From Polaribacter haliotis (GTDB taxonomy: Bacteria; Bacteroidota; Bacteroidia; Flavobacteriales; Flavobacteriaceae), in the NCBI RefSeq assembly GCF_014784055.1, contig NZ_CP061813.1, positions 769,501 through 833,500 of the forward strand: a stretch of DNA of 64,000 nucleotides. The letters run 5' to 3'. The position numbers and the translations under genes were made by a program. Each line of letters opens with the position of its first letter. Positions within the stretch are counted from its first letter, which is position 1. Below are positions 11,984 through 35,256 of the stretch, one piece after another. The notes under the pieces are model-generated. The model was given only the letters and a program-made list of their open reading frames with translations. It did not search any database and had not been told where the DNA came from.

Positions 11984-12649
11984 TTATTTTTGATAATATC
12001 GTTCTTCAATTTTATCAACATTCTTAATGGTCTTTTTTACCCAATCAAAATATAAAAACTCTTTTTCTTTTTCTGAAAGTTGCCAATTCACATCAGAATT
12101 TCGAAGTTTTGTGGTTACATCTTGTAAAATAATTGCTGCTGCTACAGAAATATTTAAGCTTTCTGTAAAACCAACCATAGGAATTTTTAAAAAACCATCT
12201 GCTTGTTCTTTTACATAATTAGAAACGCCTTCTTTTTCTACTCCAAATACAAAAGCTGATTTTTTAGAAACATCAAAATCTTGTAACATACAAGAATTAT
12301 TATGAGGAGTTGTTGCTATAATTTGATAACCTTCTGATTTTAATTTATTTAAACAATCTTTAGTATTATCTCCATCTTCTCTATAATTAAACTGACTTAA
12401 CCATTTTTGAGAACCTTTTGCAACATGTCTTGACACTTTATTTGTGTATTTATTCTCTATTGCATGTACATCTTGCACTCCAAAAATATCGCAAGTTCTA
12501 ACTACTGCACTTGCATTATGTGCTTGATAAATATCTTCTAAAACAACTGTAAAATGTCTTGTTCTATCCTCTAAAATTCTTTTGAAGAGCGATTTTCTTT
12601 TATCTGTTAAAAAACCTTCGAAATAGGTTAATAATTTTTCATCCATCAT
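11984..12649 (-). CDS. trmH: tRNA (guanosine-2'-O-)-methyltransferase, SpoU family
   Basis: A 221-residue SPOUT methyltransferase that 2'-O-methylates G18 of tRNA D-loops. All three SpoU motifs are visible: QAHNASAVVRTCDIFGVQDV (motif 1 with catalytic Arg), AFVFGVEKEGVSNYV (motif 2), and IPMVGFTESLNISVAAAIIL (motif 3, deep trefoil knot). The start could be either of two adjacent ATG codons (12649 or 12646). It is divergent from the sirtuin gene. Confidence 0.92.
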   Translation of the reverse strand: MMDEKLLTYFEGFLTDKRKSLFKRILEDRTRHFTVVLEDIYQAHNASAVVRTCDIFGVQDVHAIENKYTNKVSRHVAKGSQKWLSQFNYREDGDNTKDCLNKLKSEGYQIIATTPHNNSCMLQDFDVSKKSAFVFGVEKEGVSNYVKEQADGFLKIPMVGFTESLNISVAAAIILQDVTTKLRNSDVNWQLSEKEKEFLYFDWVKKTIKNVDKIEERYYQK

Positions 12650-12709
12650 AAAAACAAACTTAAAACTATTATTTTTACTCTTAATACATTTTACAAAACA
12701 TTTTAATTG

Positions 12710-13396
12710 ATGAAAAAAATAGTTGTTTTAACTGGTGCAGGAATTTCTGCAGAAAGTGGCATTAATACTTTTAGAGATGCTGATGGTTTGTGGGAAGGAC
12801 ATGATGTTATGGAAGTTGCAACTCCAGAAGGTTTTGCCAAAAATCCTGAATTGGTTTTAGAATTTTACAACCAGCGTAGAAAACAATTATTGGAAGTTTC
12901 TCCAAATAGAGCACATTCTAACTTGGTTGAATTAGAAAACAATTTTCATGTTGAAATAATTACACAAAATGTAGATGATTTACACGAAAGAGCTGGAAGT
13001 AAAAATGTTACGCATTTGCATGGGGAATTATTAAAAGTAAGAAGTTCTATAAATGAAAATGCTATTTTAGAATGGAAAAAGGATTTAGTTTTGGGTGATT
13101 TATGTGGAAATAAAAGTCAATTAAGACCACATATTGTTTGGTTTGGAGAAATGGTACCCATGTTAGATAAAGCTGTAGAAATTACCCAAACTGCAGATAT
13201 TTTAATAATTATTGGTACTTCTATGCAAGTGTATCCTGCAGCAAGTTTAGTGAACTATGTAAAACCCTATACTCCAATTTATTTTATAGATCCTAAACCT
13301 TCTGTTTCTAAAAACGCTTTTAATAATCTAACTATTATTAAAGATGTTGCTAGTTCTGGAACAGATGAATTGTTGAAAATTTTAATTACAAAGTAA
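12710..13396 (+). CDS. cobB: NAD-dependent protein deacylase (sirtuin), zinc site absent
   Basis: SIR2-family enzyme removing acyl groups from lysines with NAD. VLTGAGISAESGINTFRD and ITQNVDDLHERAG are the NAD-binding core, and THLHGEL carries the catalytic His. The segment that normally holds two zinc-binding CxxC pairs has only one Cys (GDLCGNKSQLRPHIVWFGE), a feature familiar from Bacteroidota sirtuins. ATG at 12710 is preferred over the TTG one codon upstream, giving 228 residues. Confidence 0.92.
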   Translation: MKKIVVLTGAGISAESGINTFRDADGLWEGHDVMEVATPEGFAKNPELVLEFYNQRRKQLLEVSPNRAHSNLVELENNFHVEIITQNVDDLHERAGSKNVTHLHGELLKVRSSINENAILEWKKDLVLGDLCGNKSQLRPHIVWFGEMVPMLDKAVEITQTADILIIIGTSMQVYPAASLVNYVKPYTPIYFIDPKPSVSKNAFNNLTIIKDVASSGTDELLKILITK

Positions 13397-13442
13397 CTAA
13401 ATAATAACAGCCATTTAAATTTGATTAAAAGCCAGTAAACAG

Positions 13443-13517
13443 GTTTAGCCCTGATTGAAACGACATCCTTTTTGTTTTTTAACAAAAAGATATAGTGGAA
13501 AGCAGGAAATAGCTACT
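13443..13517. repeat. Dispersed intergenic repeat with stem-loop
   Basis: Starts GTTTAGCCCTGATTGAAACG, continues through a perfect 9-bp hairpin (CTTTTTGTT/AACAAAAAG, 13468-13489) and ends with TAGTGGAAAGCAGGAAATAG. Its tail is similar to 24954-24982. Elements of this kind are frequent between flavobacterial genes (general knowledge). It may also terminate the sirtuin transcript. Confidence 0.55.
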
Positions 13518-13541
13518 AAAAATAATTAATGATAATAATAA

Positions 13542-13568
13542 CAGATTGCTTCGTACCTAGCAATGACG
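13542..13568. repeat. Short REP-like hairpin abutting a stop codon
   Basis: CAGATTGCTTCGTACCTAGC followed by AATGACG contains the 6-bp inverted repeat ATTGCT/AGCAAT. It directly touches the stop codon of the minus-strand gene at 13569 and may act as that gene's 3' hairpin. Confidence 0.5.
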
Positions 13569-14036
13569 TTACGAAATCAACTGATTAATATACTCGAAAA
13601 TTTCTCCTTGAGAGATAGAGCTTCCTTTTTCTATTAAATCGAAAATCTCTGAATTTCTCTCGTTATTATAAGGTTTTGATCCTTTAAATATCTCCACAGA
13701 ATTATCCATAGGGTTTTGCATTAACCACTCAAATCCCTTTTGTTCTAATAAATTGATATCCCAATTTATTTTGATAGCAATTCTATGAATTTCTTCGTCT
13801 TCGCATTTAAAAAGATTCGCAGAAGTTTCTGAGAAATGTTCTACATATTTTACTTTGGTTAAAACGTCGTCCCAAACAACATCAGAAAAAACATTCATTT
13901 CTTCTTCTGCAACTTCTGGCTTTTCTGCCTTAATCTGGTTCCATTCTTTTACATCGATACTTTGTGATGCTAAAAAACGTGCAAATTCTTCGTGTAAATT
14001 TTCGAATTGTTCTTTGGTGAGTTGTCTGTATTTCAT
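13569..14036 (-). CDS. Conserved hypothetical protein (DUF6495-like)
   Basis: A 155-residue acidic cytoplasmic protein starting MKYRQLTKEQFENLHEEFAR and ending EYINQLIS. The pattern (FARFLASQSID, then VWDDVLTKVKYVEHFSE and WDINLLEQKGFEWLMQNP) matches what is remembered as DUF6495, a Bacteroidota-restricted family of unknown role; not verified here. No membrane segment or known catalytic motif. It is the next gene after rplI on the same strand but is separated from it by a tandem repeat and a strong terminator. Confidence 0.75.
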   Translation of the reverse strand: MKYRQLTKEQFENLHEEFARFLASQSIDVKEWNQIKAEKPEVAEEEMNVFSDVVWDDVLTKVKYVEHFSETSANLFKCEDEEIHRIAIKINWDINLLEQKGFEWLMQNPMDNSVEIFKGSKPYNNERNSEIFDLIEKGSSISQGEIFEYINQLIS

Positions 14037-14048
14037 TTGAAGGTTGAA

Positions 14049-14099
14049 GTTGGAAGTTTGTAGTTGGAAGTTTGTAGTTGGAAGTTTGTAGTTGGAAGT
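14049..14099. repeat. 14-bp tandem repeat, 3.6 copies
   Basis: The unit GTTGGAAGTTTGTA is repeated exactly at 14049, 14063 and 14077, with a partial fourth copy to 14099. It lies between the start of the DUF6495-like gene and the ribosomal-operon terminator. Such arrays can vary in copy number by slippage. Confidence 0.9.
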
Positions 14100-14100
14100 A

Positions 14101-14132
14101 AAAAAAAGCTCGTTATTTCTAACGAGCTTTTT
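14101..14132 (-). terminator. Intrinsic terminator of rpsF-rpsR-rplI
   Basis: A perfect 9-bp stem (AGCTCGTTA/TAACGAGCT) with a TTTC loop, flanked by an A7 tract on one side and T5 on the other. It can work in both directions, but it follows rplI by about 20 bases on the minus strand, where the A tract reads as a run of U. Confidence 0.85.
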
Positions 14133-14153
14133 ATAAAATAAATTTAAAGTAAA

Positions 14154-14600
14154 TTATTCAGAAACAACTTCAAAAGTAATGTCTGCTACAACTGCTCTGT
14201 GTAATCTTACAGAAGCTTCGTATTTACCTAATCTTTTAACAGAACCACCAACAACTTTAATAAATTTCTTGTCAATTTCTGTTCCTGCTTTTTCTATTGC
14301 TGCTGCTAAATCTATATTGTTTACAGAACCAAATAATTTGTCTCCTGAACCAGTTTTAGATGCAATTTTAATTTCGTATCCTTTAATTTCTTCTGCTATT
14401 TTATTAGCATCTTCAATTATTTTTGCTTCTTTATAAGCTCTTTGTTTTAAATTCTCTGCTAAAACTTTTTTTGCAGATGAAGTAGCTAAAACAGCTTGCC
14501 CTGTTGGGATTAAAAAGTTTCTACCATATCCGTTTTTAACGTCTACAACATCGTCTTTAAATCCTAAGTTTTCTACGTCTTGTCTTAATATCAATTCCAT
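14154..14600 (-). CDS. rplI: 50S ribosomal protein L9
   Basis: L9 binds 23S rRNA domain V near the L1 stalk and helps keep reading frame. The 148 residues show the N-terminal signature MELILRQDVENLGFKDDVVD with VKNGYGRNFLIPTGQA, a long connecting helix and the C-terminal domain (TGSGDKLFGSV). Last gene of the rpsF-rpsR-rplI operon, followed by a strong terminator. Confidence 0.98.
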   Translation of the reverse strand: MELILRQDVENLGFKDDVVDVKNGYGRNFLIPTGQAVLATSSAKKVLAENLKQRAYKEAKIIEDANKIAEEIKGYEIKIASKTGSGDKLFGSVNNIDLAAAIEKAGTEIDKKFIKVVGGSVKRLGKYEASVRLHRAVVADITFEVVSE

Positions 14601-14614
14601 GTCTTACGTCTTTA

Positions 14615-14911
14615 TTATTTTAGTAAATCTCCAACATAAGGCATTAACGCTAAATGACGACATCTTTTGATTGCCTGCGCTACTTTACGTTGATATTTTA
14701 ATGATGTTCCTGTTAAACGTCTTGGTAAAATTTTACCTTGTTCGTTTACTAAATACATTAAGAAATCTGCATCTTTATAATCGATATACTTGATACCTTT
14801 TTTCTTAAATCTACAGTATTTTGCTTCTTTTTTAGTGTCTATATCTAAAGGCGTTAAATATCTAACGTCAGCAGATTTACCACCTTTTGCTTGTTGTTCT
14901 ATTGTAGCCAT
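14615..14911 (-). CDS. rpsR: 30S ribosomal protein S18
   Basis: S18 sits on the 30S platform with S6. At 98 residues it has a longer N-terminus than E. coli S18 (75), normal for Bacteroidota. [20 protein letters not shown], then [20 protein letters not shown] and [13 protein letters not shown] are diagnostic. It lies between rpsF and rplI with short gaps (3 and 14 bases). Confidence 0.98.
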
Positions 14912-14914
14912 TTC

Positions 14915-15256
14915 TTATTTTTTTGTAGATTTAACACGTTCTCTTCTTTTTTCTGCCCAAGCTTCTGCATGTTTGTCTAGTCTTACAGTTAAATAACGCA
15001 TAACGCTATCGTCTCTTCTAAACTCTAATTCAAACGCAGTAATTTCTTCTCCAGAAATTTTAAAGTCAATTAAGTGATAAAAACCACTTTTTTTCTTTTG
15101 AATTGGATAAGCTAATTTCTTTAAGCCCCAATCTTCTTTTGCGATTATTTCAGCTCCTTTAGAAACTAAATAATCTTCGAACTTTTGTACTGTCTCCTTT
15201 ATCTGAGTATCAGATAAAACGGGATTCAAAATGAAAACAGTTTCGTAATGATTCAT
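14915..15256 (-). CDS. rpsF: 30S ribosomal protein S6
   Basis: S6 pairs with S18 on the 30S platform. The 113 residues start MNHYETVFILNPVLSD and include GLKKLAYPIQKKKSGFYHL and FRRDDSVMRYLTVRLDKH, the conserved ferredoxin-like core. First gene of the three-gene operon; a -7 box lies 34 bases upstream of its ATG. Confidence 0.98.
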   Translation of the reverse strand: MNHYETVFILNPVLSDTQIKETVQKFEDYLVSKGAEIIAKEDWGLKKLAYPIQKKKSGFYHLIDFKISGEEITAFELEFRRDDSVMRYLTVRLDKHAEAWAEKRRERVKSTKK

Positions 15257-15289
15257 AAATTAATTATTTAATGTTTATTTTTAAGGGTG

Positions 15290-15297
15290 CAAATATA
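15290..15297 (-). promoter_or_regulatory. Predicted -7 box of the rpsF operon
   Basis: On the minus strand TATATTTG matches TAnnTTTG exactly and lies 34 bases before rpsF. About 18 bases further upstream is a TTT that is only partly like the TTTG -33 box. Confidence 0.5.
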
Positions 15298-15359
15298 GTA
15301 ACTTTTTTGATATTTAAACCATCTTATTTACAATATTTTAAAAGCTTTTTCTAAAGTAA

Positions 15360-15404
15360 AACCAGTCTTACTAAAAATCAAAATAGACTTTAATAACACT
15401 GGTT
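15360..15404 (-). terminator. Probable terminator of the sigma-factor operon
   Basis: A 14-bp interrupted stem (AACCAGT plus a shorter extension, one mismatch and one G-U pair) with a 17-base loop, about 25 bases after the stop codon at 15428 on the minus strand. It is followed by TTTTACTTT on that strand. Confidence 0.5.
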
Positions 15405-15427
15405 AATTTTATTAAAAATTAAAACTC

Positions 15428-16525
15428 TTAATTTAAATCTAAACGAATTCCTAAAGAGATATTTCTTGTTTCTGTATCTTTAAACAAAGGATTTAAATCG
15501 TATTTTACATAAAAACTAGTAGATCTATAGCCTAAATAAGCACTTAAACCATAATTAACGGTGTTCATATTAAAATTGTCATATTCTACTTGTCTTGTTT
15601 CTACGCCATTGGCATCATTAAACTCTAAATATTGTCTTGTTCCTAATTTAAAACCAACAAACCCTCCAACTCCTAATCTTATAGATCTGTTTGTATTATC
15701 GTAAACAGAACCATTTTTATAAGTTCTATTTTTTGATAAATCCCACTCAATGTGTATTGGAAAATTTACTTGAACATGACGCAATCTACTTTCCTTTAAG
15801 TTTTCTGAAAAAGTTTGAATCTCTGTCATATCTCTATTTTTAACATGATACTGATTGTTATCTAATCGCAAGTTATTCCATAAAAAAGAAACTCCATATT
15901 TAAAATATAACTGAGAAGGTTCCTTAGAGAATCTTGTTTTCCAAGTAAAACCTAATTCATAAAAATGTGATTGCCATAATTTGTATTGAGAATCGCTTAA
16001 AGTTGAAAGTTTGTTATTTTGAAGTACATTATTAACTCCCATTGCGAATACAAACTGACTTGTAGACCTATTATTATAACTTCTTTTTCTCTTCTTTGTT
16101 GTTCTTTTTTTCTCTTTAGTTTCGTCTTCATCTACCGTAAAACGAAATACCTTACTTCCAATTGTAAATGTGTTTACTTCGTCTTTTGAAAGATCGCTTT
16201 CTGTAGCACTTACAATTTTTCCGTTCGTTTTGTCTTGCACCAATAATTGTAATAATCTTTCTTGTTCGCCAACTTTTTCTTCAATTTGTTTAGCATGATA
16301 GCTTGCAATTTCCTTTTTTAAGGTATCTGCTGTAGACTTTGTAATCTCTCCTCTTTCTAATTTTTTATCAATTTCTATTACCTTCATTTTTAAAGAATCT
16401 TTCTGAGTCTTTGTAATTAGATCTATTCTTTTAGAAATTTTTCGAACTTCTTTCTCGAATGTTTTTGTTTGTGCTGTGGTAATTGTTGTTACAAACAACA
16501 CCATTATTAGTACTATTTTTTTCAT
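15428..16525 (-). CDS. Putative outer-membrane barrel protein with coiled-coil N-terminus
   Basis: A 365-residue exported protein with signal peptide MKKIVLIMVLFVTTITTAQ. Residues 20-110 are charged and heptad-like (coiled coil). A strongly basic patch (EKKRTTKKRKRS) follows near 135. The last 200 residues alternate aromatic strands and turns and finish in SLGIRLDLN, suggesting an 8-strand outer-membrane barrel. It is the third gene of a sigma/anti-sigma-like operon and is therefore a candidate target or envelope sensor of that system. No precise family recognised. Confidence 0.65.
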   Translation of the reverse strand: MKKIVLIMVLFVTTITTAQTKTFEKEVRKISKRIDLITKTQKDSLKMKVIEIDKKLERGEITKSTADTLKKEIASYHAKQIEEKVGEQERLLQLLVQDKTNGKIVSATESDLSKDEVNTFTIGSKVFRFTVDEDETKEKKRTTKKRKRSYNNRSTSQFVFAMGVNNVLQNNKLSTLSDSQYKLWQSHFYELGFTWKTRFSKEPSQLYFKYGVSFLWNNLRLDNNQYHVKNRDMTEIQTFSENLKESRLRHVQVNFPIHIEWDLSKNRTYKNGSVYDNTNRSIRLGVGGFVGFKLGTRQYLEFNDANGVETRQVEYDNFNMNTVNYGLSAYLGYRSTSFYVKYDLNPLFKDTETRNISLGIRLDLN

Positions 16526-26532: not shown

Positions 26533-27258
26533 ATGAAAACAAAAGATTGGTTTACAGAGTGGTTTAATACCTCTTATTATCACATATTATATAAAGATAG
26601 AAACGATTCTGATGCTCAGTTATTTATGAAAAATATAACTGAATTTTTAGCGTTGCCAAAATCGACACATATTTTAGATTTACCATGTGGAAAAGGACGT
26701 CATTCTGTGTTTTTAAATTCTTTAGGTTATAAAGTTACTGGAGGAGATTTGTCTAAAAACAGTATAGAATTTGCGAAACAATTCGAAAATGATACTTTAA
26801 ATTTTGAGGTTCATGATATGCGTAAACCTTTCAATAATAATTACGATTCTGTTTTTAATTTATTTACAAGTTTTGGATATTTTGAAGATGATGCTGAAGA
26901 TATTTTAATTCTAAAAAATATAAAAAACGGATTAAGCAAAGATGGTTATTTTGTCTTCGATTTTTTAAATGCTAATAAAGTGAAAGCAAATTTAGTTACA
27001 GAAGAAACTAAAATTGTAGACGACATTACCTTCAACATAAAAAGAGAAATAACAAATGGGTTTATTCTTAAGCAAATTTCTTTTTTTGCAGATGGAAAAA
27101 AACATTCTTATACTGAGCGAGTAAAGTTTTTAGATTTAGAAAAAATGACTTCTTATTTAAACAAAGTTGGTTTTACAATAAAAAATGTTTTTGGAGATTA
27201 TAGTTTGAATGATTTCGATCCTAAAACTTCCAATCGATTAATTTTAACGGCAAAATAA
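26533..27258 (+). CDS. Class I SAM-dependent methyltransferase
   Basis: A 241-residue soluble methyltransferase. ILDLPCGKGRHSVFLNSLGY is motif I, followed by VTGGDLS (acidic motif II), VHDMRKPF and SVFNLFTSFGYFED (motif IV region). Resembles the ubiquinone/menaquinone-like small-molecule methyltransferases; substrate unknown. Its stop overlaps the ATG of the ZIP transporter by one base (TAATG), so they are co-translated. Confidence 0.88.
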   Translation: MKTKDWFTEWFNTSYYHILYKDRNDSDAQLFMKNITEFLALPKSTHILDLPCGKGRHSVFLNSLGYKVTGGDLSKNSIEFAKQFENDTLNFEVHDMRKPFNNNYDSVFNLFTSFGYFEDDAEDILILKNIKNGLSKDGYFVFDFLNANKVKANLVTEETKIVDDITFNIKREITNGFILKQISFFADGKKHSYTERVKFLDLEKMTSYLNKVGFTIKNVFGDYSLNDFDPKTSNRLILTAK

Positions 27259-27935
27259 TGAGTTATATTCTTTTGGTTTTATCTGTTCTACTAGGTTCTA
27301 CTTTGGTTTTCGTTATAAAACCGAGTAAAAAAATTGTTCGGTTATTATTAGCTTTTAGTGGTTCTTACCTCCTATCTGTTACCATTTTACATTTATTACC
27401 AGATGTTTACACGATTAATTCTGATGCTACAATTGTAGGTGTTTTCATCTTGGTAGGAATTATTTTACAATCTGTTTTAGAATCGTTTTCTAAAGGTGCA
27501 GAACATGGCCATATTCACATTCATTCAGATGGAAAAAAATTTCCAACTTTACTTTTTGTAAGTTTATGCTTGCATGCTTTTTCGGAAGGTTTGCCAATAC
27601 ATCATGCAGATGATAATTTATTATGGGCAATTGTGGTGCATAAAATTCCAATTGCAATTGTGTTGACTACTTTTTTATTACACACGAATTATCCTAAGAA
27701 AACAGTTTTCCTATTTTTATCATTCTTTGCACTAATGAGTCCTTTAGGAATACTTTTAGGAGATAAAATTCCATTTTTTACTACTTATGCAACTGAAATA
27801 ACGGCTTTAATTATTGGAGTTTTCTTACATATTTCTACCATTATTCTTTTTGAAAGCACTGAGAATCATAAATTTAACTTGCAGAAGTTTATTGCGATTC
27901 TTTTGGGAGTTTTACTTACTATTTTTACTTTATAG
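27258..27935 (+). CDS. ZIP family metal transporter
   Basis: A 225-residue integral membrane protein with about seven helices. The ZIP metal-binding motifs are in the two central helices: LHAFSEGLPIHHADD and VVHKIPIAIVL. A His-rich loop (HGHIHIHSDGKK) lies between helices 3 and 4, and TILHLLPDVY is the conserved HLLP motif. Likely imports zinc or another divalent cation across the inner membrane. Coupled to the methyltransferase upstream. Confidence 0.9.
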   Translation: MSYILLVLSVLLGSTLVFVIKPSKKIVRLLLAFSGSYLLSVTILHLLPDVYTINSDATIVGVFILVGIILQSVLESFSKGAEHGHIHIHSDGKKFPTLLFVSLCLHAFSEGLPIHHADDNLLWAIVVHKIPIAIVLTTFLLHTNYPKKTVFLFLSFFALMSPLGILLGDKIPFFTTYATEITALIIGVFLHISTIILFESTENHKFNLQKFIAILLGVLLTIFTL

Positions 27936-27963
27936 ATTTTTACCTATTTTTAAGGAACGAATT

Positions 27964-27981
27964 ATACCTAATTGTAGGTAT
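27964..27981. promoter_or_regulatory. Candidate operator, perfect palindrome
   Basis: ATACCTA-ATTG-TAGGTAT: two perfect 7-bp arms with a 4-base spacer, 57 bases before the ATG at 28039. Variants of the same CCTA-N4-TAGG site precede three other genes of this locus (30546, 31066, 34554). A near-consensus -7 box (TATATTTTG, about 27986-27994) lies just downstream. Confidence 0.6.
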
Positions 27982-28038
27982 GTTTATATTTTGAATATTT
28001 ATGATATTTGGAGTATTACTAACTAAAACTATAAAACA

Positions 28039-28635
28039 ATGGTTGAAAAAAAAAATTTAACTACTTATGTAAACATTAACGATAATGAAAATTACCAACT
28101 CTTATACGCAACACAATCTTATTTCAGTTTTTTTTGTGTTTATGGTAAATTTAAAACTGAAATGGGTATTGACGAAAATAATAATGAAATTAAATTATTA
28201 AAGTCTATTGATTTTCATATTAAAAACTATAAAGGTTTTACTTATGAATTTAAAGATGTTAACCCTGACATATTAGAATATAAAGATAACACATTAAGAA
28301 TTGGATATAAGTTTACCATGCATGGTGGAATTAGAAGAGATAACACAGTAGATACATTCAAAGATATTACTGGAATAAAAAATATTTTCTTTTCAAGTGA
28401 TCCTGATAATTTTAGTGAAATGGATACATTAGGTTTAAAAGAATTAAAGGAAAGGTTTATTGATATCGAATATTATTCTAACATAAAAGAAGATAATAAT
28501 TTTTCAGCAAGTTTTTTAAAGGTAATTGAAGAATTAGAAGGCAGGGTTAAGGATGCAAACTACATGAAAACATTTTCTCCCTTAGCTGTCGGAGATAATT
28601 GTAGAAATTCGCTTATGATGGTTATAGATGGTTAA
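28039..28635 (+). CDS. Uncharacterised cytoplasmic protein paired with kinase 1
   Basis: A 198-residue protein without signal peptide or membrane helix; no family recognised. The central part is beta-rich (SFFCVYGKFKTEMG, IDFHIKNYKGFTYEF), the end contains a helix (ASFLKVIEELEGRVKD). It has a loosely similar counterpart in the protein at 32107 (a FxVxxKF strand followed by an xxNFKG/NYKG turn), which stands in the same position before kinase 2. Its last 8 bases overlap the kinase 1 start, so the two are co-translated. It follows the palindromic site at 27964. Confidence 0.7.
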   Translation: MVEKKNLTTYVNINDNENYQLLYATQSYFSFFCVYGKFKTEMGIDENNNEIKLLKSIDFHIKNYKGFTYEFKDVNPDILEYKDNTLRIGYKFTMHGGIRRDNTVDTFKDITGIKNIFFSSDPDNFSEMDTLGLKELKERFIDIEYYSNIKEDNNFSASFLKVIEELEGRVKDANYMKTFSPLAVGDNCRNSLMMVIDG

Positions 28636-30544
28636 GATTTATAAAATCTTAATTGTTTTTTTTGTTTCTCATCATTTTTACTCACAAGAAAATGATGGGG
28701 TTTTCTTATTTTTTGATGAAATACAAAAACTTAATTTCGCAAAATCTATTGAAATAGCTAATAAATTAGAAGATCCTGTAAAAACTAAGCTTATATTGTT
28801 ATCAAAAATAATTGAAGATGATAGACAAACTAAACTTGATCGTTTAGATATAAGTTACAAGTTTTTAAAATATAATTCAAAAGATAATTTAGATACTTAC
28901 TTTTATCATATAATAAAAGGATTTCAGTTTTTGAATTATACTAAAAACAGGTTAAAATCTTATAATAATTTTTTAAAAGCTTACGAAGTATCTTTAAATA
29001 TTGATTCAAAACAACTTTCAAAATTCGCTTTACAATCTACACTTATCTTCTACAGAAAAGGTATTTTACAAGGCACTAAAGATTACACAATATTTTTAAA
29101 GCAATATAAAAAATTATGTACATCTAATTTTGACTGGTTATATTATTATAGTTTTAAGTTTAATCTTTTGAGCCAAACTATTACATACAATGAAAAGAAA
29201 TCAAAAAATCAGATTCTATATAATAAAATTTTTGAAAAATATGATTCATTAATTGTTAATAGTAATAATTTAGGAAAATTAAAGTTTTTGTATTTTATAG
29301 ACAAAGGAAATCATATTATAAGAGAAAATCCCAAGCTAGCAAAACAATTTTTTATGAAGTCTTGGGCTTATTATGAGAATAGTAAATTTTTTAGATTTCA
29401 AAAATTTTATGGATTAATAAGTCTTTCTAGAGTCACAAGTTTATTAAATGAGCATAAAAAAGGGATAGAATATCTTAATCAAGCAAAGCAATATATAAGT
29501 TTTAATGATAGTTTATGGGATAAATATGATATAAGTGCTCACAAGGCAAATCATTTCTATCATTTAAAACAATATGATTCAGCTTACTATTATGAAAAAG
29601 ATGTACGGTTTTTAGGTTTTAAAATTAATTTTCAAAAAGAAAACCAACAAGTTTCAGAGCTAAAAGTAGAATTAGATACAGAAAAAAAAGAAAAAGAAAA
29701 CCTCCAATTAAAACAAAAAAACCTAGAAACAGAAGCAGAGAGTAAGCAAAGAAGAAACATGCTAATTGCTTCTCTTCTATTTATTTTATCTGCAGGAACA
29801 ATTGCTATTCTATTATTAAAAAACTCCAAAAGAAAAAGAAAACTTGCAGAACAACAAAAAGCTTTAGAAACTCAAAAAAACCTAACGTTACTTAAGGAAC
29901 AAGAATTAACTACCATAAATGCTATGGTAGATGGGCAAGAAAAAGAACGTAAACGAATTGCAGAAGATTTACATGATAATTTAGGCTCTGTTTTAGCAAC
30001 TTTAAAACTACATTTCGAGAATCTTCAAATTAATAAAGAAAAAAAGAAAATTAACCAAGAAGAACTATTTAACAAAACCGAGAGCTTAATAGATGAAGCT
30101 TATTTAAAAGTAAGAAGTATTGCGCATGCCAAAAATGCTGGTGTAATTGCAAACCAAGGTTTGTTAACAGCTGTGCAAATGATGGCAGAAAAAATATCTT
30201 CCGCAGATAAAATTAATATAGAAGTTATTCATTTTGGTCTTGATAAACGTCTAGATAATAGTTTAGAAATTACTGTTTTTCGAATTATTCAAGAGTTAAT
30301 TACCAATATTATAAAACATGCTGAAGCTAAAAATGCAACTATAAATATTTCCTTATATGATAAAAATCTAAATATTATTATAGAAGATAATGGTAAAGGA
30401 TTTAATGTGAAGAAGGTAAATCTAAAAGATGGAATGGGAATAAGCTCCATAAAAACAAGAGTAGAACATTTAAAAGGAACTTTTGAAATAGATGCTACTA
30501 TTGGCAAAGGAAGCTCTGTAATTATTGATATTCCTTTAGAGTAA
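28628..30544 (+). CDS. Sensor histidine kinase 1, TPR-like sensor, NarL-type core
   Basis: A 638-residue kinase: signal peptide MVKIYKILIVFFVSHHFYSQ, a periplasmic helical TPR-like sensor to about 340, a coiled coil, one membrane helix (MLIASLLFILSAGTIAILLL, 378-397), a second coiled coil, then HisKA_3 with phospho-acceptor His449 in RIAEDLHDNLGS, and a HATPase domain (QELITNIIKHAE, IIIEDNGKGFN, GMGISSIKTRVEHLKG). The catalytic half is almost identical, at DNA level too, to kinase 2 (32709-34550), whereas the sensors differ. No response regulator follows directly; the nearest is at 34615. Confidence 0.92.
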   Translation: MVKIYKILIVFFVSHHFYSQENDGVFLFFDEIQKLNFAKSIEIANKLEDPVKTKLILLSKIIEDDRQTKLDRLDISYKFLKYNSKDNLDTYFYHIIKGFQFLNYTKNRLKSYNNFLKAYEVSLNIDSKQLSKFALQSTLIFYRKGILQGTKDYTIFLKQYKKLCTSNFDWLYYYSFKFNLLSQTITYNEKKSKNQILYNKIFEKYDSLIVNSNNLGKLKFLYFIDKGNHIIRENPKLAKQFFMKSWAYYENSKFFRFQKFYGLISLSRVTSLLNEHKKGIEYLNQAKQYISFNDSLWDKYDISAHKANHFYHLKQYDSAYYYEKDVRFLGFKINFQKENQQVSELKVELDTEKKEKENLQLKQKNLETEAESKQRRNMLIASLLFILSAGTIAILLLKNSKRKRKLAEQQKALETQKNLTLLKEQELTTINAMVDGQEKERKRIAEDLHDNLGSVLATLKLHFENLQINKEKKKINQEELFNKTESLIDEAYLKVRSIAHAKNAGVIANQGLLTAVQMMAEKISSADKINIEVIHFGLDKRLDNSLEITVFRIIQELITNIIKHAEAKNATINISLYDKNLNIIIEDNGKGFNVKKVNLKDGMGISSIKTRVEHLKGTFEIDATIGKGSSVIIDIPLE

Positions 30545-30545
30545 A

Positions 30546-30563
30546 GTCACTACTAATAGGTAT
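30546..30563. promoter_or_regulatory. Candidate operator, degenerate left half
   Basis: GTCACTA-CTAA-TAGGTAT: the right half is identical to the site at 27964, the left half matches only partly (ACTA). It begins just after the stop of kinase 1, 72 bases before the gene at 30636. A TAnnTTTG-type box (TATTTTTG, 30584-30591) lies between them. Confidence 0.4.
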
Positions 30564-30635
30564 TTTAAATAGTTTTAAAATGCTATTTTTGATTTTAAGT
30601 AAACCAAATAAACTAATTTTAATTAAAATTTTATT

Positions 30636-30974
30636 ATGAAAAAATCTACTATATTTTTATTTCTATTTGGTGTTACTGTAATACTTGCAATAATAATTGT
30701 TATTAATTTAAAAGATACTTTAGATTTAAAGAGTGCAGAGTTTTGGGTTTATAGAGTTGTTGTTTCTTTAGGTGCTGCTGCAATTAGTATTTCAATTCCA
30801 GGAATGTTAACCATTAATTATACTCCAAAAAGTAATGACTACAATACTGAAGTATCTAAAAATAGTAACAGAATCTTTGAAACGTTAGCAGAAAAAGAAT
30901 CTGCTATTGTTGCTTCTGGTGGAATTGCTGTTTTTGTTTTAGTATATTTATTTAATCCTATAAGTATTTCCTAA
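30636..30974 (+). CDS. Small three-helix membrane protein
   Basis: A 112-residue inner-membrane protein. Hydrophobic segments are at about 5-25 (TIFLFLFGVTVILAIIIVIN), 38-60 (VYRVVVSLGAAAISISIPG) and 92-110 (ESAIVASGGIAVFVLVYL). Between helices 2 and 3 is a polar loop of about 30 residues. No family recognised. It has its own predicted -7 box and a partial CCTA-N4-TAGG site upstream. It stands alone between kinase 1 and the peptidase gene, so a role with that system is positional inference only. Confidence 0.7.
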   Translation: MKKSTIFLFLFGVTVILAIIIVINLKDTLDLKSAEFWVYRVVVSLGAAAISISIPGMLTINYTPKSNDYNTEVSKNSNRIFETLAEKESAIVASGGIAVFVLVYLFNPISIS

Positions 30975-31065
30975 ATTTTATTTATAGAGATTTATTGTTA
31001 TTGTTTTAGGGATTTTATTGTCCTTTTTACTTTATAGTTTTTTACTTATATTTAAAAAAGAAAAT

Positions 31066-31083
31066 ATACCTATTTGTAGATAG
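31066..31083. promoter_or_regulatory. Candidate operator upstream of the peptidase gene
   Basis: ATACCTA-TTTG-TAGATAG: left half identical to 27964, right half two bases off. 69 bases before the ATG at 31153. The 30 bases before it (ACTTTATAGTTTTTTACTTA, then a T/A-rich run) also resemble the stretch before 27964. Confidence 0.5.
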
Positions 31084-31152
31084 TTAAATCTTTCAAAAAA
31101 AGCTTTCTCTTTTTGAATAGATTTTAATCCTTAATTATTTATCATAAAATAT

Positions 31153-32103
31153 ATGAAAGTGTTTTATTATTTTGAAGATTTAGTTTATCAACCTCAGGTA
31201 AAATCAAAATGGTGCTGGGCAGCTTGTGGTTCAATGATTTCTAATTTTTACAAAAATCAAATTAATGATAATCAAAGTCATTTTGTTATTTCCAAATACA
31301 ATAGTTTAAAAAATAGATATATAAAAATTTCTGAAATAAACAATCTTTACAATAAATTTAATATAAAATGTATTCAAAAAGAGAAAGCTTTTATTCAAAA
31401 TTTTGAGTTAGTAAAAAACACTTTAATAGAAACCAGAAGTCCAATAATTCTTGGTGTGGAGATACGAAATAAGTTAAAACATTTAGTTTTAGTTGTTGGT
31501 TATGGAGAGTGTGATAGCAAAAATTACTTACTCATATATGACCCGAATTCTAATCAAATTTATAATCATTATGATAATAATAATTTCGAATATGATGGTA
31601 ATAAAATAAGCCATGTTTGGGTTACAGGAAAAAATAACAACTCAATAGGAAATCAGCTAAAAAAGTTAAGGAAAACAAATTCGATTAGTAATATTATACC
31701 TCAATTTAAAAGATATAGTCAAGTCCGTAAAATAAGTTTAACAACAAAATCTTTTTTAGGTAATAGTTTTATAGAAAATACTAAAGAGATGGCTTTTTTA
31801 GTGGGGAATAATCATTTTTTAACATATGACTTTAATGAAGGAATTGTATGTGAAGATAATATTACTTTAACACTAGCAAGTCAGGGAGATTTAAATAATA
31901 TTTTAGGAAGTATTATCAAAGATAATCTATTAGAGTTCACAAAATTTACGTTTTATTCTAATACCGGTGTTTTTATAATAGAATCCGAAATAAATAATAA
32001 ATTATACGAAAGAGTAATTAATATACCTCAATACGAATTAAATAATTTAGGCAAGCTTTCACAAATCAAATACGAAAAAAAATTTTTAACCAATAAAAAC
32101 TAA
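31153..32103 (+). CDS. Papain-like cysteine peptidase (C39/C70-like)
   Basis: A 316-residue protein. KSKWCWAACGSMISNFYK carries the nucleophile Cys21 with the Q..CW arrangement (Gln13 or Gln15), LKHLVLVVGYGE supplies His110 and LLIYDPNS supplies Asp130, giving a full papain-like triad in the first 140 residues, as in AvrRpt2-type or C39-like domains. Residues 170-316 are beta-rich and unrecognised. There is no signal peptide, so cytoplasmic action, or export by an unseen route, is possible. It is followed three bases later by the 199-residue protein and then kinase 2, so these three form an operon under the site at 31066. Confidence 0.82.
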   Translation: MKVFYYFEDLVYQPQVKSKWCWAACGSMISNFYKNQINDNQSHFVISKYNSLKNRYIKISEINNLYNKFNIKCIQKEKAFIQNFELVKNTLIETRSPIILGVEIRNKLKHLVLVVGYGECDSKNYLLIYDPNSNQIYNHYDNNNFEYDGNKISHVWVTGKNNNSIGNQLKKLRKTNSISNIIPQFKRYSQVRKISLTTKSFLGNSFIENTKEMAFLVGNNHFLTYDFNEGIVCEDNITLTLASQGDLNNILGSIIKDNLLEFTKFTFYSNTGVFIIESEINNKLYERVINIPQYELNNLGKLSQIKYEKKFLTNKN

Positions 32104-32106
32104 ACT

Positions 32107-32706
32107 ATGGCACATCATTTATTAAAATTTAACTTACAACCTAAAGTAATTGGAGAATGGCAACCAATTGTAGCATCTCAAGCTTTTGATACTTTCTATG
32201 GCGTTTTTGTTAAATTTGTAAAACACGAACTACCAACAGAAGATTTTAAACTACATACTTACTATTGTATGTATAAAATTCAAAATTTTAAAGGAGCAAT
32301 AAGTATGGGGTTTCATTCTGAACCAGACTTTCGAACTACTCCTGGTTTTGGAGAAGATGGTGAACCTTATGATTTTTCTTTTAGAATAAAATTATCTCCA
32401 TTTAACAGAGACTGGGAAACTAAAATAATAAAACATCATTCTGAAAATGATTTATCCATACCAAACAAAATTTTTGAATCTTTAGTTGATATTAAAAACC
32501 CTCCTAGTTTTATGTATAATAGCAATGAGCCAGATCAATCTCTTTATCTTCATCCAGACCAATATAAAAGAGATGGTGATTCTTATTTGAAAATTGAATA
32601 TAAATCGACATCAGAGGAATGTAATAATAATTTAAATATTGAAAATGAAGATTTGGTAGGAAGACATCCTTTTATTTGCGACATGACTAGATCTATAACA
32701 AGATAG
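32107..32706 (+). CDS. Uncharacterised cytoplasmic protein paired with kinase 2
   Basis: A 199-residue protein with no signal peptide, membrane segment or recognised family. FYGVFVKFVKHELP and YCMYKIQNFKGAIS form beta strands like those of the 198-residue protein before kinase 1. A loop rich in Gly, Pro and acidic residues (RTTPGFGEDGEPYDFSFRI) may bind a ligand or metal. The end has scattered cysteines. The gene lies three bases after the peptidase gene and two bases before kinase 2, so they are almost certainly co-expressed. A substrate or inhibitor of the peptidase is one possibility (inference). Confidence 0.7.
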   Translation: MAHHLLKFNLQPKVIGEWQPIVASQAFDTFYGVFVKFVKHELPTEDFKLHTYYCMYKIQNFKGAISMGFHSEPDFRTTPGFGEDGEPYDFSFRIKLSPFNRDWETKIIKHHSENDLSIPNKIFESLVDIKNPPSFMYNSNEPDQSLYLHPDQYKRDGDSYLKIEYKSTSEECNNNLNIENEDLVGRHPFICDMTRSITR

Positions 32707-32708
32707 CC

Positions 32709-34550
32709 TTGAAATTTATATTTATATTATTTTTTAGTATTCAATCACAAATAAATACTGTAATAAATTATTTAAAAGTTAATAATTTTAAAGGTGCTAA
32801 TGAGTTTATTTTAACAAATGATCTCTCTTATGAATTAAAAAACGACTTAAATACTTTAATGCTTTTAAATAAAAATATTGGTACTATATCTATTCCTAAA
32901 TTGTTATTAAAAGGAGATAATAAAAAATTAGAGTACAGATACTTATATTATTTGAACAAGGGATTAATTGAATATCATAATAATGATAATCCTCTTGAAG
33001 CTTATAATAATTTAATAAAAAGTTTAGAAATAGGTAAATCCATAAAGAATAGGGTTTTTATTTTAGAAAGCATTAGGAATATTTTGATCATTTATTGTAA
33101 TCAAGGCCATTTATTAAACGATAAATATTATAAGGATTTTCTCTTAGAGTATAAATTGAATATAATTAATAGTATTGATTTTGCGTTTTATAAATATTTC
33201 AGTTTTAAACTTAATTTAATAGAAAAACAATACAAAGATATTTCATATTCTAAATACTTAGATACTAAAACTTATATAAGTAATATAGGTTTTAATTATT
33301 TAAGTTCATTACAAAATATATCAAATGCAAGTTTTCAATTTCACATAAAAAAAAATATTGATAGTGCATTTCATTTTTTAACTATACCAAACTATTTAAA
33401 TAAAAAATTTCCAATAGAAAAATTAGTAATTGATAAAATCAATTTAAATAAGGCAAAATATTATTTAGAAATTGATTCAACTAAAGAGTCAAAAAGAATC
33501 TTAAATTTAGTACAGCTTCCTAAAAAAGGATATTTAAACAAAAATGCGCACATTTATTTTTTAGACAGAAAATGGAAACTTTTTGAAAAACTTGGAGATA
33601 GAGATAGTTCGTTAATTTACTCTAATAAGTACCTAAATAGTAGTTTTTTAGCTAAACACTATGAAACTCAACATTTAATTTCAGACTCTAAAACCAAAGA
33701 AAATACAGCCAAAAAAGAAAAAGAAATCTCAGAGGAGAAACAAAAAAACAAGCAAAAAGAAAATCTTTTAATTGCATCAATTATATCATTAATTTTAGGA
33801 ACCATAATAGCTCTACAATTTCTAAAAAACTCCAAAAGAAAAAGAAAACTTGCAGAACAAGAAAAAGAATTAGAAACCCAGAAAAACCTAACCCTGTTAA
33901 AAGAGCAAGAAATTACAACTATAAATGCTATGGTAGATGGACAAGAAAAAGAACGCAAACGAATTGCAGAAGATTTGCATGATAATTTAGGTTCTGTTTT
34001 AGCAACTTTAAAATTGCATTTCGAGAATCTTCAAATGAATAAAGAGAAGAAAAAAATAAACCAAGAAGAATTATTTAATAAAACCGAGAGCTTAATAGAT
34101 GAAGCTTATTTAAAAGTAAGAAGTATTGCGCATGCCAAAAATGCTGGTGTAATTGCAAACCAAGGTTTGTTAACAGCTGTGCAAATGATGGCAGAAAAAA
34201 TATCTTCCGCAGATAAAATTAATATAGAAGTTATCCATTTTGGCTTAGACAAGCGTTTAGAAAATAGTTTAGAAATTACTGTTTTTCGAATTATTCAAGA
34301 GTTAATTACCAATATTATAAAACATGCTGAAGCTAAAAATGCAACTATTAATATTTCCTTATATGATAAAAATCTAAATATTATTATAGAAGATAATGGT
34401 AAAGGATTTAATGTGAAGAAGGTAAATCTAAAAGATGGAATGGGAATAAGCTCCATAAAAACAAGAGTAGAACATTTAAAAGGAGCTTTTGAAATAGATG
34501 CTACTATTGGTAAAGGTAGTTCTATTATTATAGATATTCCTATTGAATAA
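32709..34550 (+). CDS. Sensor histidine kinase 2, paralogue of kinase 1
   Basis: A 613-residue kinase with TTG start giving a hydrophobic leader (MKFIFILFFSIQSQIN), a periplasmic helical sensor of about 320 residues unlike that of kinase 1, a coiled coil, a membrane helix (LLIASIISLILGTIIALQFL), and the same HisKA_3/HATPase core with phospho-acceptor His424 (RIAEDLHDNLG). The core DNA includes a 155-base run identical to kinase 1 (34080-34234 against 30074-30228), including synonymous positions. It is followed by the response regulator at 34615. Confidence 0.92.
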   Translation: MKFIFILFFSIQSQINTVINYLKVNNFKGANEFILTNDLSYELKNDLNTLMLLNKNIGTISIPKLLLKGDNKKLEYRYLYYLNKGLIEYHNNDNPLEAYNNLIKSLEIGKSIKNRVFILESIRNILIIYCNQGHLLNDKYYKDFLLEYKLNIINSIDFAFYKYFSFKLNLIEKQYKDISYSKYLDTKTYISNIGFNYLSSLQNISNASFQFHIKKNIDSAFHFLTIPNYLNKKFPIEKLVIDKINLNKAKYYLEIDSTKESKRILNLVQLPKKGYLNKNAHIYFLDRKWKLFEKLGDRDSSLIYSNKYLNSSFLAKHYETQHLISDSKTKENTAKKEKEISEEKQKNKQKENLLIASIISLILGTIIALQFLKNSKRKRKLAEQEKELETQKNLTLLKEQEITTINAMVDGQEKERKRIAEDLHDNLGSVLATLKLHFENLQMNKEKKKINQEELFNKTESLIDEAYLKVRSIAHAKNAGVIANQGLLTAVQMMAEKISSADKINIEVIHFGLDKRLENSLEITVFRIIQELITNIIKHAEAKNATINISLYDKNLNIIIEDNGKGFNVKKVNLKDGMGISSIKTRVEHLKGAFEIDATIGKGSSIIIDIPIE

Positions 34551-34553
34551 AAA

Positions 34554-34571
34554 ATCCCTATTTATAGGTAT
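34554..34571. promoter_or_regulatory. Candidate operator upstream of the response regulator
   Basis: ATCCCTA-TTTA-TAGGTAT: 13 of 14 arm bases match the perfect site at 27964. 43 bases before the ATG at 34615. A TTTG (34571-34574) and TATTTTTA (34593-34600), 18 bases apart, are a plausible -33/-7 pair, so the site would overlap the -33 region. Confidence 0.55.
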
Positions 34572-34614
34572 TTGAAATCTAATTTAAACACCTATTTTTA
34601 CTTAAAATATTCCT

Positions 34615-35256
34615 ATGATAACAATAATAATGGCAGAAGATCACCAAATGTTAATTGATGGTGTAAAATCTTTCTTTGAATATGACGATAATATCAATAT
34701 TATTGGTACTGTTAATAATGGAGAAGATTTAGTAAAGCTAGTTTCTTTAAAAAAACCAAAAATGGTAATTACAGATATTAGAATGCCAAGAATGGATGGT
34801 ATTGAAGCTACTAGTATTATAAAAAAACAGTTTCCGAATATTAACGTTTTAGCCATGACAATGTTCGACCAACCAGATGCCATTAAACAAATGTTAGATG
34901 CTGGTGCAACAGGTTATATTTTAAAAAATTCTGGAATAAAAATGTTGTCTAAAGCTATTGTAGCAGTTTCTAGTGGAGAAACATTTTTCGACCCAAATGT
35001 TGCCTTCAATTTTATGAATAGTTATATAGATGATAATATAACAATCGGAAAGACAGATAAAGTTGTTTTATCTAATAGAGAAAAAGAGATTTTACATTTA
35101 ATTGCAAATGGAAAAACTTCTAAAGAAATCGCATCAGATTTATTCCTAGCAAAAACAACTATAGATACCCATCGTAAAAACATGATACGTAAACTAAACT
35201 TATCTTCTGGTAGTGAATTAGTTAAATATGCTATTGATAAAAAATATCAGTTTTAA
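34615..35256 (+). CDS. LuxR-type response regulator
   Basis: A 213-residue NarL/LuxR-family regulator. The receiver has the acidic pair AEDHQM, phospho-acceptor Asp54 in VITDIRMPRMDG and LAMTMFDQPDAIKQML. The output domain is LSNREKEILHLIANGKTSKE with TTIDTHRKNMIRKL, a GerE helix-turn-helix. It is the only response regulator of the locus and the obvious partner of kinase 2, and by core identity of kinase 1 also. The palindromes in this locus are candidate binding sites. Its stop overlaps that of the convergent recQ. Confidence 0.93.
   Translation: MITIIMAEDHQMLIDGVKSFFEYDDNINIIGTVNNGEDLVKLVSLKKPKMVITDIRMPRMDGIEATSIIKKQFPNINVLAMTMFDQPDAIKQMLDAGATGYILKNSGIKMLSKAIVAVSSGETFFDPNVAFNFMNSYIDDNITIGKTDKVVLSNREKEILHLIANGKTSKEIASDLFLAKTTIDTHRKNMIRKLNLSSGSELVKYAIDKKYQF

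Follow-up and report, generated by a model that had tools for sequence, protein, structure and literature searches.

What kind of system needs two sensor kinases with nearly the same catalytic half, a papain-like peptidase and a single response regulator? Such a locus occurs in Polaribacter haliotis, in a 64,000-nucleotide stretch of contig NZ_CP061813.1 (the window, whose coordinates are used throughout), where seven plus-strand open reading frames (ORFs) spanning 28039-35256 encode, in order, a small protein (SP1), a histidine kinase (HK1), a membrane protein (TM3), the peptidase (PEP), a second small protein (SP2), a second kinase (HK2) and the response regulator (RR) (Table 1). A first-pass annotation had described seven genes on one strand within 7.2 kb, which the ORF coordinates confirm. 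Comparison with relatives leaves us highly confident of the architecture: this is a two-component switch at a fixed site, in which a constant output half is joined to an exchangeable input cassette.

We identified an RR orthologue in 62 of 166 genomes of the genus (E ≤ 1e-90) and an RR match in 55 of 299 genomes of the family (E ≤ 1e-60), with Polaribacter and Tenacibaculum as the named close members. The locus was read in 61 of the 62 (G432 was left out; loci and genomes are cited below by L and G numbers), revealing a shared order of trmN, methyltransferase, ZIP-type transporter, cassette, kinase catalytic half and regulator. The left flank of trmN, methyltransferase and ZIP was present in 60 of 61 loci, the 61st, without the ZIP flank, being cut by its contig. 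Mean identity over 28 loci was 85% for trmN, 69% for the methyltransferase, 73% for ZIP, 83% for RR and 89% for recQ. Among 20 loci from other genera, a kinase precedes RR in 19 and an SP-sized ORF (139-263 aa) precedes the kinase in 17, with six of these 17 ORFs matching SP1 or SP2 by BLAST. Pfam assigned HisKA_3 and HATPase_c to HK1 and HK2 and Response_reg and GerE to RR, and the same two kinase domains were found in 30 of 30 kinases scanned, with a Response_reg and GerE regulator encoded adjacent. RR also gave sub-threshold matches to the MctR and NarL models. The phospho-acceptor residues are His 449 in HK1, His 424 in HK2 and Asp 54 in RR.

Across 64 kinases (three short ones omitted), mean pairwise identity was 4-27% in the sensor blocks (residues 1-340), 28-49% in the coil and membrane helix and 61-90% in the kinase blocks. 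HK1 follows this layout, with a signal-peptide-like start, a hypervariable helical sensor at about residues 20-378, a transmembrane segment at 379-397 and the constant HisKA_3/HATPase half at 400-638. An exchange can be seen between the sister genomes of L175 and L180, whose small proteins belong to different classes (B and A, respectively). Their DNA is 88.8% identical until 80 bases past ZIP, 82.3% identical from the coil and membrane region of the kinase and 94.2% identical from RR onward, with no DNA match of at least 40 bases inside the cassette, a pattern that puts the breakpoints near the operator described below and the membrane helix. The cassette is the segment bounded by the operator on one side and the membrane helix of the kinase on the other; it encodes a fast-evolving small protein (SP) and a helical-repeat sensor and, in some loci, a peptidase as well.

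The 67 cassettes comprised 25 with a class A SP, 22 with class B and 20 with other types (the first cassettes of L038 and L049, L038_1 and L049_1, were assigned to class A by hand). In a sensor tree of 65 rows (built, like the other trees, by a quick method and without two truncated sensors), classes A and B each formed a single group with support of 92 and 89, and SP class and sensor type go together. On a tree of trmN and the methyltransferase (60 rows), by comparison, the three-state class required 26 changes against a shuffled mean of 28.6 (32 of 200 shuffles gave a value no higher), class A alone 18 against 18.4 and class B alone 14 against 16.9 (as low in 28 of 500), so that class B is slightly clustered; overall, cassette type is nearly random with respect to the flanking genes. 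SP profiles matched 29 class A and 23 class B proteins in the 166 genomes, of which 28 and 23 lay within 7 kb of RR. Because these same loci supplied the sequences for the profiles, on-locus matches arise by construction, and the informative result is the absence of copies elsewhere. The sole off-locus match was in G431, whose genome is 86% complete, is split over 290 contigs and yielded no RR. The first-pass view of a dedicated unit gains support here, with 51 of 52 SPs within 7 kb of RR when SPs apart from the locus were sought in the 166 genomes.

The operator is a palindrome, TACCTA-N4-TAGGTA, found with at most one mismatch within 100 bases after ZIP in 56 of 60 loci and upstream of a -33/-7-like promoter. 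Letter shuffles gave no match at one mismatch or fewer and 0.7% at two mismatches. A second site lies in the spacer between kinase and regulator, where 41 of 53 loci carried it with at most two mismatches compared with 0.4% of shuffles (8 of 61 spacers fell outside 30-200 bases and were left out). In other genera, the site drifts towards TACCCA-N4-TGGGTA, and 12 of 19 kinase loci had a spacer site with at most two mismatches, a count without a shuffled control. The palindrome resembles paired NarL heptamers, and RR is inferred to bind it. Exact sites averaged 4.29 in the 62 genomes with RR and 0.84 in the 104 without, cassette sites included and uncorrected for kinship or genome size, whereas the backward motif averaged 0.37 and 0.23. 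Eleven genomes without RR had at least three sites, and one of these genomes (G387) has a partial RR. Exact sites also precede genes for secreted proteins, such as one encoding a Por_Secre_tail protein next to yebC; at L236 (1501-1516) and its relatives, the same palindrome lies about 72 bases before a type IX secretion system (T9SS) cargo gene adjoining yebC. This cargo gene is present in 14 genomes with RR and 14 without, and since it keeps the operator in the latter, we do not claim a regulon from the operator scan. Separately, TACCTAATGATAAGGA occurs three times at 1146-base spacing at genome positions 2261076-2263383 (G000:C1), near genes for leucine-rich-repeat proteins at L234 and L241.

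Exchange through conserved flanks, as in L175 and L180, is also what would be expected of ordinary environmental sensor kinases, with a sensor that differs from niche to niche and is exchanged through homologous recombination, and with SP and peptidase as passengers or minor accessories; two-component systems commonly swap sensors as they evolve. We nevertheless consider this account unlikely, given that 51 of 52 SP matches lie at the locus (with locus-built profiles), that SP class matches sensor type, that the operator stays unchanged as the sensor changes and that SP-like proteins recur by the kinase in other genera.

The window itself is a tandem array of two cassettes. The 3' end of ZIP and the operator are duplicated before PEP (27922-27991 versus 31024-31093, 79% identity), the remnant at the seam is 79-80% identical to the ZIP 3' ends of L036 and L037 and 76% identical to genome positions 797366-797480, and the stretch after HK1 resembles, by eye, the kinase-regulator spacer of relatives. 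Together, the ZIP-end and operator copy and the spacer-like stretch place a second unit, running from the ZIP side to a kinase, between HK1 and RR. The first-pass gene list stands, but the ZIP-end copy and spacer-like stretch that reveal an array had been overlooked. Its pairing of a single regulator with two sensors whose catalytic halves are nearly identical is supported, as 230 of 238 C-terminal residues are identical between HK1 and HK2 and the sensor halves share little. Two kinases plus a peptidase do not, however, define the system as had been proposed, since only 6 of 61 loci contain two cassettes and only 12 have a long ORF before SP.

Within such arrays, the catalytic halves were 93.5% identical in the window, 95.9% in L042, 93.8% in L189, 97.6% in L203 and 85.4% in L206, and they were closer within than between genomes in five of six arrays (12 genomes compared). 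Most of this likeness could stem from recent duplication. L042 and L189, however, have their two cassettes in the same arrangement and are still closer within than between genomes, a pattern suggestive of gene conversion; such conversion would leave both sensors coupled to the single regulator. Kinase genes are split or shortened in the first cassette of L038, the L049 cassette and L208, and some cassettes may be decaying.

Table 1. Features of the Polaribacter haliotis locus in window coordinates.
Feature	Position	Strand	Description	Basis
ZIP-type transporter gene	27258..27935	+	Fixed left flank; left of cassette in 60 of 61 loci	Pfam Zip
Upstream operator-like site	27941..27956		Two mismatches to TACCTA-N4-TAGGTA	Motif comparison
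Operator	27965..27980		TACCTAATTGTAGGTA, exact	Motif comparison
Promoter-like element	27989..28010	+	TTTTG...GATATTTG; resembles the Bacteroidota -33/-7 promoter consensus	Sequence and recurrence among relatives, by eye
SP1	28039..28635	+	198 aa; class A small variable protein; near-invariant Cys near C-terminus	
HK1	28628..30544	+	638 aa; kinase	
Spacer-like stretch	30545..30635		Resembles kinase-regulator spacer; operator-like site at 30547-30562 (two mismatches)	By eye and motif
TM3	30636..30974	+	112 aa; membrane protein	55% identical relative in L046
ZIP remnant and spacer	30969..31082	+	ZIP 3'-end remnant; seam of second cassette	
Operator before second cassette	31067..31082		One mismatch	Motif comparison
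PEP	31153..32103	+	316 aa; peptidase, papain-like (C70/C39-like); hydropathy shows no signal peptide	
SP2	32107..32706	+	199 aa; class A small variable protein	Single-linkage BLAST, alignment
HK2	32709..34550	+	613 aa; TTG start; second sensor kinase	
Operator in kinase-regulator spacer	34555..34570		One mismatch	Motif comparison
RR	34615..35256	+	213 aa; NarL/LuxR-type response regulator; constant output	

Other genes appear in places around the cassettes. TM3 lies at the seam, with the spacer-like stretch on its left and the ZIP remnant on its right, and its relative in L046 opens a peptidase cassette. An ORF of 197-212 aa occurs between kinase and regulator in L044, L175, L176, L178 and L196; these five were included in a pooled Pfam scan of 30 cassette or neighbouring ORFs, for which the matching members are not named. 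About five or six genes separate RR from recQ in some relatives only (L038, at 12118-16238, L041 and L054), and the L038 block includes one LpoB/FlgO-like gene (just below cut-off) and one DUF6175 gene.

The sensor is probably periplasmic, judging from a hydrophobic N-terminus in 62 of 64 kinases and a single internal hydrophobic stretch just before the kinase in all 64. The first-pass annotation had pointed to TPR-type HisKA_3 kinases with LuxR regulators as common in flavobacteria. TPR_12 was present in 16 of 30 family kinases scanned, but Pfam found no TPR in HK1 or HK2 themselves; the structural model of HK1 is an all-helical sensor array followed by a kinase whose best structure matches are to DesK.

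The peptidase PEP matches Peptidase_C70 (E 6.7e-7) and C39_2 (E 4.6e-6) and retains WCW (from residue 20), H110 and D-P-N (from residue 130), which have catalytic roles in such enzymes. An ORF of 286-504 aa precedes SP in 12 of 61 loci, with none such in the other 49, and its fold changes. The pooled scan returned seven Trypsin_2, four C70 and two S8 matches, and scanned singly, L178 was trypsin-like, L041 and L179 encoded subtilases and the L202 cassette ORF matched no family. BLAST matches to PEP itself came from L038, L196 and L204 and, in other genera, L212 and L229. In the sensor tree, L196 and L204 group with the HK2 sensor (support 91) and share its peptidase type, and L041 joins L179, starred but with a long-branch warning. 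The first-pass annotation had named the occurrence of the peptidase and small proteins in relatives without the kinases as evidence against its reading; PEP matches occurred in 6 of 249 family genomes, of which at least three adjoin RR, and on this rarity and the changing folds we rejected the peptidase as a conserved core. The annotation had also cast the peptidase as an output controlled by the regulator. From the changing fold (C70, trypsin-like or S8) and the tendency to follow sensor clade, it looks instead like an interchangeable input part, papain-, trypsin- or subtilisin-like.

Changing peptidase folds beside a hypervariable small protein might also suggest conflict or defence, with SP as an effector that the adjoining peptidase activates and the kinase switches on upon envelope attack, similar in spirit to protease-activated bacterial gasdermins. 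By hydropathy, neither peptidase nor SP had a signal in 11 of the 12 long-ORF cassettes and both did in L178, which would place the two in a shared compartment in 12 of 12. We judge it very unlikely all the same: 49 of 61 loci have no long ORF, an output effector would have no need of an SP class tied to the sensor, and PADLOC gave no match for SPs, kinases or PEP, leaving the stress- or defence-like response of the first-pass annotation unsupported. The PADLOC matches obtained were a weak one of TM3 to PycTM (E 0.012) and CARF3 matches to the C-terminal part of RR.

The small proteins are 141-363 aa in length (two kinase fragments left out). SP1 and SP2 match each other with a BLASTP E value of 0.028 and join class A by single-linkage BLAST through relatives, making them distant relatives at best. 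Neither has a Pfam family or a PADLOC relative, SP1 has no PDB relative (TM3 likewise had nothing above a Pfam family cut-off), and homology between classes A and B, sought by hhalign, was not found. All 26 class A proteins share an invariant Gln, and 25 of the 26 have a Cys close to the C-terminus. In class B, 21 of 22 proteins terminate in GGGVIVxxP or something close to it, the 22nd carrying such an end in another frame, and identity is 0.63 in the tail compared with 0.24 in the body; the minor classes have distinct ends of their own. Within class A, Mantel tests correlated sensor distance with tail (r 0.55) and body (r 0.46; both p 0.001) and, for the kinase, gave r 0.11 (p 0.16). The frameshifted SP of L044 was omitted from tail statistics. 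In 10 of 12 sister pairs, or 9 of 11 without L044, conservation was lower in SP than in the sensor. For example, L043 and L198 share 30% identity in SP and 84% in the sensor, and both SPs end in GGGGVIVRNP.

A body that changes fastest beside a tail that is kept, as in this last pair, would also be expected if SP were bait, that is, an exchangeable adaptor whose conserved tail docks on the sensor and whose fast-changing body meets a variable outside ligand such as a phage, predator, glycan or competitor product. Cassette diversity would then track enemies or niches. The lipoprotein-like forms that exist among SPs and the helical-repeat/TPR sensor fit this idea. It is credible but, we think, fairly unlikely, as most SPs have no export signal by hydropathy, SP has no known binding fold (the SP1 model is rich in strands at 20-90 and of low confidence towards its end) and bait alone does not explain the signal-less peptidases.

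We therefore favour, tentatively and with somewhat less than even confidence, strain-private signalling in which SP is a putative ligand or ligand precursor, because the layout and output domains resemble those of Bacillus comQXPA. On this reading, RR would bind the TACCTA-N4-TAGGTA operators and activate its own cassette in positive feedback, SP, acting through its C-terminal tail, would be the ligand that fits the sensor or a precursor of that ligand, and cassette peptidases, where present, would process SP. Only cells with matching cassettes would understand each other, giving a private channel as in comQXPA or agr pherotypes. More doubtful, though possible, is the full form of this proposal for Gram-negative Bacteroidota: a polymorphic channel with a C-terminal SP peptide and a periplasmic helical-repeat receptor kinase, in which ligand, processing peptidase and receptor pass together from species to species as a single cassette, all of them using a common, self-activating operator. 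Gram-positive bacteria are known to carry pherotype loci with this layout; no such polymorphic sensor locus of Bacteroidota appeared among the papers listed in searches of the open-licence PMC literature.

The comQXPA system likewise has an adjacent, same-strand kinase (PF07730 and PF02518) and regulator (PF00072 and PF00196), a small gene before the kinase, and a kinase with a variable N-terminus and a constant cytoplasmic half (PMC4008528). Unlike comQXPA, the flavobacterial locus has a helical-repeat sensor with one transmembrane segment rather than a many-helix membrane domain, optional peptidases, a Gram-negative host and SPs of 141-363 aa compared with 52-73 aa for ComX. No ComQ isoprenyl transferase was found among the window genes and those cassette ORFs that were scanned (not every ORF of the 61 loci), and ComX (PF05952) had no match in 26 class A and 21 class B SPs, cassette ORFs below 60 aa not having been looked for. 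The RRNPP systems (Rap, Rgg, PlcR) offer a second parallel, in that a TPR or helical-repeat receptor adjoins a gene with a short conserved product end; in RRNPP systems, the signal is usually the last 4-10 residues, and the receptors are intracellular proteins of 250-500 aa in Firmicutes with propeptides of 10-100 aa (PMC10075063). Here, in contrast, the repeat domain forms part of a membrane histidine kinase and should lie, by prediction, outside the cytoplasm, and SPs, by their size and few export signals, do not resemble exported propeptides. NarL-family and DesK-like HisKA_3 systems are also similar, the HK1 model matching DesK best and RR falling below cut-off for MctR and NarL, but their sensors and small proteins are unrelated and the cassette here is exchangeable.

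Several observations weigh against the signalling reading. The ligand role of SP is itself something we infer, and because SP and sensor lie within one exchanged block, linkage alone does not prove contact. The C-terminal signal of ComX is its most variable part (PMC4008528), whereas the class B tail is the most conserved part of its SP. Tail-receptor co-variation was tested within class B and was absent (r -0.09, p 0.72). Positive selection on SP was not shown in 12 hand-picked pairs, as dN/dS (the ratio of nonsynonymous to synonymous substitution rates) exceeded 1 in no full-length pair and the lone higher value involves the frameshifted L044. A crude hydropathy rule found an export signal in only about 15 SPs, although the sensor is probably periplasmic. 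The SP1 model is poor (mean predicted local distance difference test, pLDDT, 58.8) and had no fold match at E ≤ 0.001, and locus-built profiles could miss divergent SP copies elsewhere. The T9SS-cargo gene retained the operator with at most one mismatch in 11 of 14 copies from genomes without RR, compared with 13 of 15 from genomes with RR; its persistence without RR implies that another factor reads the same sequence, and this second reader may also act at the cassette locus. Finally, the kinase halves of L038 (82.4% identical) were not homogenised, and the quick trees carry long-branch warnings for the L041/L179 and L050/L202 joins.

If SP and sensor do form a ligand-receptor pair, the locus would represent a strain-private communication or self-recognition system in marine flavobacteria. 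It would supply dozens of natural matched pairs for the study of receptor specificity, together with a rule for sensor swapping in which the operator and the membrane helix mark the breakpoints. Even with SP as bait, it would be a modular receptor locus under strong diversification.

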